From Zygnema cylindricum (Eukaryota > Streptophyta > Zygnematophyceae > Zygnematales > Zygnemataceae), in NCBI GenBank assembly GCA_037447655.1, contig JBBHKE010001178.1, forward strand, positions 122,001 through 186,000: a stretch of 64,000 nt of DNA, read 5' to 3'. The notes below the pieces were generated by a model. That model was not told the origin of the DNA and searched no databases. It saw only the letters and a list, made by a program, of their open reading frames with translations. Numbering within the stretch: the first letter of the stretch is position 1; every line of letters begins with the position of its first letter. A program made the position numbers and the translations under genes. Of the stretch, positions 1 to 14,900 are shown in pieces.

Positions 1-1008
1 GGATGATTCAAGCACGCAACAAATTGCCACCGCATGTCTGTCATGGAACAAGACACTGCATTAAAATGGTGAAGAGCTGAAGGAGGAAATATGCGCCGTG
101 AAGTGTCGTTGCACAATTCAGCATTGACACTGTTTCTTCTCTTGTTACCTCCCTTGCTTTAAAATATTATCCTATCTATTTTTCTCTATTGCCTCTATCC
201 ATACATTCCCCTCGCAAACAATCTCTGCACCTGTGCCTGCTTTCCATATTTTCCAGATTCCTTGCTGAACACATTTGAGTAAAATAGTAGGTTATTCTTG
301 ACTCTTATCAACTCCCACTTACATGAAACCAAAAAGCTGCCATATTTATCTACTCCGTATTCATCTACTTCAGCATTATCAACTTCTTCAGCAGAACCAA
401 TACATCTAAACCTGAGAACTTACCCTGGCCAAGCAATTCTGCAAACTTTAATTTATGACAATTTCAAGGGTCTTGGGTAAGCAACAATAATTAAATATAA
501 CTTCAAAACCAACATAAGGACAGGTAGATTGAGGGAAAAAAACTCAAAAAATAAGCATTGGTAAAGTAGCCCAAAGTTAAGGTGCTTGGTGATTTTTTTT
601 GTCAAATAACGATGACAGGTGGTCTAAACTCTCTTGCAAAACACTTCTCCCCCCAATCGAACCATGGACTAGGTCATCATTACATGAAAGAAGAACCGAC
701 CAGTCAGTGTGACCGGTTTAACACTTTCCCCGTCACCGAGTAATGTCAAAATGCACATTCAGGGGTGTTATGATCTAAACCTTACCTTACCTGTTTTGAT
801 TTCCGCAATTTATATAAAAGTGGAGATAGCAACAAAGACAAAAAATTAACTATTTTTCTTTACAAATTCCTTAGAGAACAAAGTAGAATTATCACAATTG
901 CAGGACGCTCTCCTGCATATTGAACATATCTCCAGAAATGGATTGATTTTTGAAAGAGGACGCCTAAGTGGAACTTCAAAAAAGAATGGGACTCTGCTAA
1001 AAACTCAC

Positions 1009-2531
1009 AGCATCCGTGCAGAAGCAGCGATATACTTGTCCCGATGCCAGCAACTTCTTAGCATAATCTTGGTATATCTGATTTCGTTCTGACTGTCGAT
1101 AAGGTCCATATTCTCCTCCCACATCAGGCCCTGAAAAACAGATAGCAGTCTATACACAGATTAGCATGCCACTATATTTGATGATATATGCATAGTGCAC
1201 AAAAAGGATTATTTCATTCCCAAAATATCAAGGTTTCCTTTATAATGTAGGAACTAGGCTTGGTTCCAGCCTATTTATTACTTTTTACGTGGGAGGGCAA
1301 ACCTATGCAAGTACGCTCGCTGAAAGAGCGTGAAAGTAAATTGTGAAAGAGTATTTCATTCAACCATAAATTTCTCTCATAAGTAAAAGAGTGGAACCTT
1401 TGAAGTCATCTAAGTAGGATTATTGAAACGAGCAGCATTAGCGTTTCATATATCTGAATGCAAAAAAAGTTTAGATTGCAAATGCAGCATCATCTCAAAA
1501 CACAAGTCCAGATAAGTATAAAGGGTTGGGCTTACCTTCATCCCAATTAAGGCCCAACCATCGCAAATCCCTCAACATCATTTCTTCAGATGCTCTTGTG
1601 GAACGCTCAAGATCAGTATCTTCTATTCGAAGAATAAACTTGCCATTCTGAGCACTGCAGCAGAAACCTTCCATGCCCCCATTCATTGGAAACATTTAGT
1701 AATGGAGTCGTGTATGAACAAAAATCTCCATGGAGTGGAGAAAACATACACCAGAATCACGTCGTCAAAATGTAGTGACGACAACAAAGCAAGACTTGAA
1801 AAAACGACCGTGGTTTAATTTTGTGTCTATGAAACAGGATGGGCAAACTATTCATTCACTGGGACAGTCTTGCAATGTTGAGTTCTTTTTAGGATCCCTC
1901 CTTCCTCCCTTTCTTCCCTTCCCTTCCTTCCCTTCCCTCCCTTCCCTCCTTTCACACTACTTACACAGTTTTTATCCTTTCACACGACTTAAATGAGAGC
2001 AAACTTAGGCAATCACCAAAATACATTATGCGCTCAAATGAGCCACGTCATAGGAAAAACGTTTTCGCCATAAAACATTTGTTGGCATAAAAGGAATTGT
2101 CTCCTACAACTTATTCGTAATTGTAGCTTACTGAAAATCACAACAGCAACTTGAAGCACGGTAGATAAACCACACACTATTTAAACCCTTGAGCCTTTGA
2201 ATTACCGAGCAAAAAGCCAATTAAAAAGAGCTGTTCTCGCTCCTCCTACATGGAGATTTCCTGTTGGTGATGGGGCAAAACGTACTCTCACACCACTATC
2301 TTTCTGATCATTTGTTACTTGCTTTGCTTGAACCTTCCCTGCAAGAGCATTTTTAGAATACAATACTTTTCTGTCTATCGGTTTAACATGCAGGCGAATG
2401 GAACCTAAAAATACATTGCTAAGAGAAAAAGAGATACGTCTAGCTGAAACAAGAGAAGGAGAGCGAGACAGCCAGCCCGATGAAGGACCAGCTGTGGTCA
2501 GACGAGCGTAAGATGAGGCTGTGAGAGCCAT
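1009..2531 (-). CDS. Glutamyl-tRNA synthetase, organellar type, 5' exons (left-arm copy, partial)
   Basis: This is the minus-strand copy of the first three exons of the gene at 11985: exon 1 2531-2206, exon 2 1654-1536, exon 3 1130-1009. Exon lengths (326, 119, 122 nt) are identical in both arms and every exon edge has GT-AG signals. Exon 1 gives a serine/arginine-rich targeting leader followed by the class I catalytic start [18 protein letters not shown], in which HVGG is the HIGH-type ATP-binding motif. Only scattered residues differ from the right arm (for example S/T near residue 6 and V/A, I/T in the leader). The next exon would lie outside the window to the left, so whether this copy is complete cannot be judged. 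It would charge plastid and/or mitochondrial tRNA-Glu. Confidence 0.85.
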
Positions 2532-11385: not shown

Positions 11386-11984
11386 TAGTAGTCTAGCCAA
11401 TCCACGGTCACCTAGGATCTAATCTTACGGTTTCGATGTTTTTACGTGTAATTCTAGCTCTTTGTTTACCGTCTTTTCAGTCTTGTACCTTGTACTATTT
11501 GACTGAAAGTAAATACGTGTCCCATACCTTTGAAACTCGTATGCACGAAACAGGCTCATTTTTGCAACGCCAGTCAATGTAACATCCAGCGCTCAGGTTT
11601 ACCATTTGGGTTTATACCAGGATGTCCTACATACCGCCAGTTTCGTACTGCCATACTGAGCAACGACCGGCACTCCTGCCGGCACGCCGTATTACAAAAC
11701 GCCGCTACGCATACGATACGCAAATCTTTAATACGGAGGCGAATGGGGTCGTCCACATTATTTGAAGTAAGAGACGGATGCCACGTCATCCCATTCAATC
11801 TATCCAAAAGATAATTGGGCCAGATAAAATAAAAAGATTCCCCAACGCCGTCGCTCGGTTTGGAATTCCAAAAGTTCCTCGAGTTGTGGAGGGAGAGCGA
11901 TTTTAGGAAGCTTTACAAGAAAGTCCAACTCTCTCACAGGGCTTCAAAACACAAACAGAGAGAGGTAGAATAGTAGAAGAATCA

Positions 11985-14900
11985 ATGGCTCTCACAGCCA
12001 CATCCTACGCTCGTCTGACCACAGCTGGTCCTTCATCGGGCTGGCTGTCTCGCTCTCCTTCTCTTGTTTCAGCTAGACGTATCTCTTTTTCTCTTAGCAA
12101 TGCATTTTTAGGTTCCATTCGTCTGCATGTTAAACCGACAGACAGAAAAGTATTGTATTCTAAAAATGCTCTTGCAGGGAAGGTTCAAGCAAAGCAAGTT
12201 ACAAATGATCAGAAAGATAGTGGTGTGAGAGTACGTTTTGCCCCATCACCAACAGGAAATCTCCATGTAGGAGGAGCAAGAACAGCTCTTTTTAATTGGC
12301 TTTTTGCTCGGTAATTCAAAGGCTCAAGGGTTTAAATAGTGTGTGGTTTATCTACCGTGCTTCAAGTTGCTGTTGTACTTTTCAGTAAGCTGCAATTACG
12401 AATAAGTTGTAGGAGATAATTTCTTCCATGCCAACAAATGTTTTATGGCGAAATCGTTTTTCCTATGACGTGGCTCATTTGAGCGCATAATGTATTTTTG
12501 TGATTGCCTATGAATAGTTTGCCCATCCTGTTTCATAGACACAAAATTAAACTACGGTCGTTTTTCAAGTCTTGCTTTGTTGTCGTCACTACATTTTGAC
12601 GAGGTGATTCTGGTGTATGTTTTATCCACTCCATGGAGATTTTTGTTCACACGCGACTTCATTACTAAATGTTTCCAATGAACGGGTGCATGGAAGGTTT
12701 CTGCTGCAGTGCTCAGAATGGCAAGTTTATTCTTCGAATAGAAGATACTGATCTTGAGCGTTCCACAAGAGCATCTGAAGAAATGATGTTGAGGGATTTG
12801 CGATGGTTGGGCCTTAATTGGGATGAAGGTAAGTCCAACCTTGACTTGTGTTTTGAGATGATGCTGCATTTGCAATCTAAACTTTTTTTGCATTCAGATA
12901 TGTAAAACGCTAATGCTGCTCGTTTCAATAATCCTACTTAGATGACTTCAAAGGTTCCACTCTTTTACTTGAGATAAATTTATGGTTGAATGAAATACTC
13001 TTTCACATTTTACTTTCACGCTCTTTTAGCGAGAGTACGTGCATAGGTTTGCCCTCCCACGTAAAAGTAATAAATAGGCTGGAATCAAGCCTAGTTCCTA
13101 CATTATAAAGGAAAGCTTGATATTTTGGGAAGCAAATAATCCTTTTTGTACACTATGCATATATCATCAAATATTGTGGCATGCTAATCTGTGTATAGAC
13201 TGCTATCTGTTTTTCAGGGCCTGATGTGGGAGGAGAATATGGACCTTATCGACAGTCAGAACGAAATCAGATATACCAAGATTATGCTAAAAAGTTGCTG
13301 GCATCGGGACAAGTATATCGCTGCTTCTGCACGGATGCTGTGAGTTTTTTGCACAGTCCCATTTTTTTATGAAGTTCCACTTAGGCGTCCTCTTTCAAAA
13401 ATCAATCCATTTCTGGAGATATGTTCAATATGCAGGAGAGCGTCCTGCAATTGTGATAATTCTACTTTGTTCTCTAAGGAATTTGTAAAGAAAAATAGTT
13501 AATTTTTTGTCTTTGTTGCTATCTCCACTTTTATATAAATTGCGGAAATCAAAACAGGTAAAGGTAAGGTTTAGATCATAACACCCTTGAATGTGCATTT
13601 TGACATTACTCGGTGATGGGGAAAGTGTTCTGGTCACACTGACTGGTCGATTCTTCTTTCATGTAATGATGACCTAGTCCATGGTTCAATTGGGGGGAGA
13701 AGTGTTTAGCAAGAGAGCTTAGACAACCAGTCATCTTTATTTGATTAAAAAAATCACCAAGCACCTTAACTGTGGGCTACTTTACCAATGCTTATTTTTT
13801 GAGTTTTTTTCCCTCAATCTACCTGTCCTTATGTTGGTTTTGAAGTTATATTTAGTTATTGTTGCTTACCCAAGACCCTTAAAATTGTCATATATTAAAG
13901 TTTGCAGAATTGCTTGGCCAGGGTAAGTTCTCAGGTTTAGATGTATTGGTTCTGCTGAAGAAGTTGATAATGCTGAAGTAGATGAATACGGAGTAGATAA
14001 ATATGGCAGCTTTTTGGTTTCATGTAAGTGGGAGTTGATAAGAGTCAAGAATAACCTACTATTTTACTCAAATGTGTTCAGCAAGGAATCTGGAAAATAT
14101 GGAAAGCAGGCACAGGTGCAGAGATTGTTTGCGAGGGGAATGTATGGATAGAGGCATTAGAGAAAAATAGATAGGATAATATTTTAAAGCAAGGGAGGTA
14201 ACAAGAGAAGAAACAGTGTCAATGCTGAATTGTGCAACGACACTTCACGGCGCATATTTCCTCCTTCAGCTCTTCACCATTTTAATGCAGTGTCTTGTTC
14301 CATGACAGACATGCGGTGGCAATTTGTTGTGTGCTTGAATCATCCATGAACTTGCTGCTAGGTCTTTGGTCAATTTGTATGGAAAGTAGAACGTTGCTGG
14401 CTCTCCATAGCACATTATTGAATAGCACATTATTATTATTATTATTATTTTTTTGATGTTACCATCGTTGACGACATTCTTGTCAGAAGACTTTGTGGCT
14501 GGCATAGGCGTTTTCAATCTTGTCTGTGCCCTCGTACGTTTATTTGGGCACCTAAAATGCCAGTTCTTTTTTCTGTGCTTCACAATTTTATCACCATCTT
14601 GTTTCTCTTTTTGAATGTCACAACATATTACCAACACTTTTTCAGTCCAAGGCATCAGCTGAGGCATCCTTGTTTGTTAACTTGCATGTTCTTTGTTAAT
14701 GTGACTTGCGTTACTTTGTGAATGCAGGAGCTCGAAGCGATGAGGGAGGAGCAGGAGGCAAAGAAGCTTCCACCAAAATATGTTGGAAAGTGGGCCTATG
14801 CCAGTGATGCAGAAGTGCAAGCCGAATTGGAAAAGGGAACTCCATTCACATATAGATTTCGTGTACCTCAGGACCGCCGAATTGTCATCAATGACCTCAT

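Follow-up and report, generated by a model that had tools for sequence, protein, structure and literature searches.

False heterotype duplications in genome assemblies typically leave a gap between the two copies, sometimes with wrong gap filling, and truncate genes, as passages of PMC9516828 describe them. Gene-conversion palindromes, such as those of mammalian sex chromosomes, consist of kilobase-scale inverted arms around a short spacer with a gene copy in each arm, and the arms are more than 99% identical in the part of PMC8981503 that treats them. The inverted repeat considered here lies in a 64,000-nucleotide window of the Zygnema cylindricum assembly GCA_037447655.1 (C883:122001-186000, C883 being contig JBBHKE010001178.1, 343,030 bp) and carries two copies of a glutamyl-tRNA synthetase (GluRS) gene, intact in the left arm (arm A) and broken in the right arm (arm B). 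Like a false heterotype duplication, it combines allele-like copies on one scaffold, a gap between them, a truncated gene, and at least one more divergent copy in the assembly; unlike one, its copies are inverted instead of in line, and its outer junction is gapless and falls on a GA microsatellite. It shares inverted kilobase arms, a short spacer, and a gene copy per arm with gene-conversion palindromes, but its arms are 95.5% identical and one gene copy is truncated and broken. On balance, arm B would be a displaced piece of the locus from a second haplotype (or second subgenome), a reading somewhat more likely than a true inverted partial duplication.

The inverted repeat is confirmed in the assembly and is larger than first noted. 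When the window is extended along C883 by 122 kb leftward and 70 kb rightward, BLAST places arm A at C883:118620-128418 (9799 bp) and arm B at C883:139751-129951 (9801 bp). Within the window, arm A occupies 1..6418 on the plus strand and extends left to C883:118620, and arm B is present entire at 7951..17751 on the minus strand as the reverse complement of C883:118620-128418. The first-pass annotation had described a 6.4-kb repeat already matching at base 1 of the window; the match from base 1 is borne out, and the repeat stands with its size revised to 9.8 kb per arm once sequence beyond the window edge is included. It had also put the identity of 1-6418 to the reverse complement of 7951-14345 at 90-97%. 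The inverted match holds, but the range does not, as the five BLAST blocks have identities of 96.4, 92.6, 87.6, 90.3, and 88.1%, and the third and fifth fall below it. The match is far above chance (E = 0 in three arm B blocks). The five aligned blocks of the whole arms differ at 388 of 8580 sites (4.5%), a difference too large for a palindrome kept by gene conversion, which is thereby ruled out. From outermost to innermost, the block mismatch rates are 3.1, 4.6, 9.0, 8.4, and 4.1%. The longest identical tract of the outer block, 263 bp, was reached in 4.2% of 2000 uniform-divergence simulations, a marginal excess. In a search of the 352.8-Mb assembly (2689 contigs) with the in-window part of arm A (window:1-6418) as query, the arm blocks occur at these two places only among the matches listed (best 40 of 6690 candidates).

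The spacer between the arms measures 1.53 kb, including an assembly gap of 10 N (7595..7604) whose true size may differ. The symmetry centre lies near 7184 and the gap about 415 bp to its right, in keeping with the earlier placement of the gap close to the centre. The left side of the spacer (6419..7594, plus strand, 1176 bp) begins with ∼0.94 kb that has no listed second copy save a stretch of ∼76 bp, followed by low-complexity pyrimidine-rich DNA that abuts the gap. The right side (7605..7950, plus strand, 346 bp) has no listed second copy and separates the gap from the inner end of arm B. The matches to the spacer listed elsewhere, from the best 40 of 387 candidates, are all confined to the low-complexity part and the ∼76-bp stretch. 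At the outer end, homology stops exactly at an (AG/GA)22 tract (17751..17794, plus strand), and the outer junction C883:118620/139751 contains no N.

The GluRS gene of arm A is complete. It lies on the minus strand, has 13 exons with GT-AG introns, and comprises 599 codons without an internal stop. In the gene model, exons 1 (2206..2531), 2 (1536..1654), and 3 (1009..1130) lie in the window, whereas exons 4-13 lie to its left at C883:115766-121639, so that the gene runs past the arm end to C883:115766. The Pfam domain PF00749 (tRNA-synt_1c catalytic domain) is matched in the frame of exon 1, and the protein aligns with transcript protein P0001 across 599 residues at 90.7% identity. In a maximum likelihood tree of 23 proteins, 22 of them chosen among 120 listed of 8000 matches, it groups with Mesotaenium and Closterium (support 100/99) beside P0001; the closest named relatives among those 120 are streptophyte GluRS proteins. 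Judged by its sequence, the arm A gene is of the predicted organellar (plastid/mitochondrial) type and resembles the organellar GluRS of streptophytes. A literature search returned nothing on Zygnema together with glutamyl-tRNA synthetase.

The copy in arm B differs from this type in lacking exons 9-13 and one splice acceptor. Comparison with arm A locates exons 1 (11985..12310), 2 (12710..12828), 3 (13218..13339), 4 (14728..14910), 5 (15473..15591), 6 (15922..15970), 7 (16931..17032), and 8 (17296..17398), all on the plus strand; exon 8 is the final one present. The acceptor AG of exon 6 in arm A reads GCG in arm B, and homology ends within intron 8, at the start of the GA tract. Of the two divergent synthetase copies proposed earlier, one is thus a complete gene; the other amounts to 8 of 13 exons, 3'-truncated, with a splice acceptor lost. 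A genome search with P0001, in which all 23 candidates were scored and 20 matches obtained, finds exons 1-5, 7, and 8 exactly twice, both times on C883; exon 6 is below the length that the search can list. Exons 9-13 occur once in that search, in the gene of arm A, and no rest of a second gene was found. One more match, on C1641, is distant (37%).

Evidence that arm B was long a working gene comes from the distribution of differences between the arms. Mismatches are far rarer in exons (15/1123) than in introns (161/4591; Fisher p = 6.5e-5). Exons 1-8 differ by 10 synonymous and 5 nonsynonymous changes, a ratio of nonsynonymous to synonymous rates (dN/dS) of 0.15. Had arm B been neutral since the split, ∼15-17 nonsynonymous changes would be expected in that arm alone, given equal lineage lengths, against the 5 observed in both copies summed (P 0.003 to 0.0008, on small counts). 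Nonsynonymous changes so far below the neutral expectation suggest that the gene of arm B kept working through most of the time since the split and was disrupted only late. Three of the five amino acid differences can be polarised with P0001, and all three changed in arm B. The pattern looks like that of an allele, or of a copy donated by the other haplotype; it fits allelism without proving it. The earlier suggestion that the arms might be alleles gains support from this constraint and from one further divergent contig pair in the assembly.

That pair comes from the Rpb2-type polymerase subunits, which give 18 matches on 7 contigs. C1554 and C430, the sole Rpb2-type pair compared by sequence and picked for their matching exon layouts, are 89.3% identical over 503 columns, introns included; a second piece of C430, ∼8 kb off, is collinear with C1554 at 88-89%, with a 394-bp indel. 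Judged from the two places compared, C430 (32,001 bp) probably represents the Rpb2-type region at C1554:63263-74517 a second time, as a haplotype or subgenome copy that the assembly did not collapse. At least one further divergent second copy is thus retained in the assembly, and arms A and B differ less than this pair does.

In charophytes the vegetative phase is usually haploid. As an argument excluding haplotypes this was set aside, because a diploid k-mer profile is reported for the probable source strain, Zygnema cf. cylindricum SAG 698-1a_XF, in sections of PMC11096116. The same sections describe a genome of 359.8 Mb (N50 213.9 kb, 3,587 scaffolds) rich in Copia and MITE (miniature inverted-repeat transposable element) sequences, a two-peak k-mer profile read as diploid with 2.22% heterozygosity, and a strain called probably polyploid; its assembly with SPAdes, WENGAN, and Platanus-allee yielded a pseudo-haploid consensus.

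Several lines of evidence favour a displaced haplotype fragment. A gap separates the copies, a hallmark of a false heterotype duplication in the passages of PMC9516828 cited above, and of three gaps in 256 kb of C883 the spacer gap alone has mirror copies within 12 kb on both sides (for the gap at C883:255105, the right-hand check covered 886 bases). The outer end of arm B is one of only two (GA/TC)n loci of at least 24 bp in those 256 kb (144 of 256,000 bases), and the other begins 4 bp past a second 10-N gap, at C883:255105-255114. The spacer gap itself is directly preceded by a tract of at least 95% pyrimidines. Both ends of the stretch C883:129605-139750 (10.1 kb, arm B plus 346 bp) thus lie at sequence of a kind that may well interrupt such an assembly; loss of HiFi reads is reported for GA-rich DNA (passages of PMC9241371, citing Nurk et al. 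2020). The divergence of exons, far below that of introns, is less than a copy nonfunctional since the split would show; C430 and C1554 provide another divergent second copy; and the probable strain is reported in PMC11096116, in the sections noted, to be diploid, 2.22% heterozygous, and represented by a pseudo-haploid consensus.

In the proposed sequence of events, the haplotypes would be divergent at the locus, so that the fragment corresponding to arm B was assembled separately. It would then have been set beside its own allele in inverted orientation, with one join kept as the 10-N gap and the other closed across the (GA)n tract. The real chromosome would carry one organellar-type GluRS gene per haplotype and no 20-kb palindrome. 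What is seen directly is two copies with sharp ends, one of them truncated, a GA tract, and a constraint like that between alleles; the mis-join itself we infer.

Other observations weigh against a displaced haplotype fragment. Its weakest point is that the two sides of the spacer should be allelic yet are unrelated, so that a haplotype-specific breakpoint must be assumed as well. Local alignment of the left against the right side scores 26 (200 shuffles: mean 24.7, maximum 35), and the outer flanks of the arms score 36 (60 shuffles: mean 37.6, maximum 51); allelic continuation past the duplicated stretch is absent at both inner and outer flanks. Unrelated flanks fit a haplotype origin only with a mis-join plus a structural difference, and assignment to the class of false duplications is provisional. 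The outer junction lacks N, a chimeric join is needed there, and scaffolding links would offer no natural route to an inverted placement. The GA tract at the breakpoint could be biological. One of the three gaps examined, at C883:176974, has no GA/TC tract, and 9 of 11 clusters of purine- or pyrimidine-rich windows lie away from gaps. Most of the few loci tested are single: ArgRS has one locus, GluRS exons 9-13 one occurrence, AlaRS two loci whose exon layouts differ, and the 4.1-kb flank window:20110-24200 no second long copy among the best 40 of 52 candidates. The divergence of 4.5% is about twice the mean heterozygosity given for the probable strain in the available sections of its description.

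The genome-wide count of the (AG)20 pattern stands apart from these arguments. It has 24,286 forward and 23,679 reverse overlapping matches, and the first 100 listed make up 5 tracts, none of them close to where a contig begins.

A real inverted segmental duplication, in which a 9.8-kb segment with the 5' two-thirds of GluRS was copied in inverted orientation ∼1.5 kb away, is a substantial possibility, if one short of even. Template switching at the GA tract may have started it, after which both copies would have diverged and received mobile-element insertions, the truncated one being left as a pseudogene. The two sharp ends with unrelated flanks everywhere are what a single inserted copied segment would leave, and an outer junction without N comes naturally to it. 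So does a spacer for which no second copy is listed, save in low-complexity DNA and a stretch of 76 bp. Exons 1-5, 7, and 8 have their second copy only here, and no remainder of a second gene was found; arm B is truncated and has lost a splice acceptor, as in a decaying duplicate, and every polarisable amino acid change falls on its side. The weakest point of a real duplication is that arm B was under purifying selection during most of the divergence, which rules out a copy dead from the outset if the duplication itself began that divergence. Added to this, coincidence would have to account for both the gap in the spacer and the GA tract at the junction. The C430/C1554 pair, also a second copy within this assembly, shows at least equal divergence.

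An imperfect palindrome of 20 kb could also be real and have formed between haplotypes, in which case part of the other, divergent haplotype or subgenome would have been copied in inverted orientation beside its allele at the (GA)n tract. This is unlikely; if true, an inter-haplotype template-switch insertion would carry an organellar GluRS copy, broken only recently, in a zygnematophyte that is diploid or polyploid.

The first-pass annotation had also considered a tail-to-tail join of two haplotypes at the gap, which, taken as a join of two complete contigs, is very improbable. The gap between the arms, their allele-like divergence, and the polymorphic inserts agree with such a join. Allelic contigs should, however, stay homologous outward, and here homology ends after 9.8 kb inside both contigs, with unrelated flanks at the inner and outer ends. 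No collinear mirror homology (matches >300 bp) beyond the arms was found in 118.6 kb to the left and 116.2 kb to the right, only scattered repeats; the rightward scan ended 87 kb before the end of C883. The flank at window:20110-24200 likewise lacks a second long copy among the best 40 of 52 candidates. The simple form of the join is rejected, and its rescue needs a second chimeric join at C883:139751, which would turn it into the displaced haplotype fragment favoured here.

The arms of a fold-back palindrome derive from one molecule and are hence near-identical. A palindrome created at the level of single long reads, by a fold-back chimera or an adapter that was missed, is barely credible and is ruled out by arms that have diverged under coding constraint, differ at 4.5% of sites, and carry different element insertions, even though false palindromes of 7-17 kb are reported in PacBio reads in a passage of PMC9516828.

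The distinction between a displaced haplotype fragment and a real duplication has practical consequences. Should the structure be an artefact, gene counts are in error, as is any claim that this locus holds a duplicated GluRS gene or a palindrome, and a haplotype fragment bounded by GA/TC tracts is a pattern worth checking when this and similar heterozygous algal assemblies are cleaned. Should it be real, both breakpoints of an inverted duplication are in view, which would help in learning how GA repeats seed rearrangements.

The arms also differ by inserts that lie between the aligned blocks and are private to one of them, three in arm A and two in arm B; several of these have terminal inverted repeats and face an empty site in the opposite arm. 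Arm A has a 150-bp insert of C/T-rich repeats (1856..2005) that is not in arm B, and two MITE-like elements with terminal inverted repeats. The first of these (∼3138..3575) has an apparent 8-bp target duplication and other long genome copies at ∼83-91% identity; the second (∼5046..5543) has many long genome copies at ∼82-88% and an empty site in arm B. By genome-wide search, both belong to the dispersed repeats of this genome. Comparison of the arms shows a 628-bp insert with inverted terminal sequences in arm B (10769..11396) and a 472-bp insert flanked by a short duplication (TGTAT) at 8526..8997, where the arm A site is empty.

Other repeats occur along C883. Another dispersed MITE-like repeat has oppositely oriented copies, 75% alike, at window ∼19652-20108 and 24583-25014; among the matches listed for it (best 39 of 6836 candidates) it is on 38 contigs, mostly at 72-87%. 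An old tandem duplication links window 35876-38257 and 47410-54919, in pieces ∼75-84% alike. Its first duplicate has weak RING-finger matches below Pfam cut-offs, and in its second the matching pieces are separated by a Ty1/copia element (reverse transcriptase, integrase) that has 124-bp direct repeats, 91% alike, on either side. At window 43036-45480 is a degenerate CT-rich array of short units, ∼70% self-similar in many registers, whose long open frames read as Ser/Pro/Leu repeats. To the left of the window, a 2753-bp unit is repeated head to tail ∼3.4 times in C883:35344-44771, the copies being at least 99.9% identical, and 1049-bp direct repeats at C883:19109-20157 and 24511-25559, 99.8% identical, are probably the ends of a young long terminal repeat (LTR) retrotransposon.

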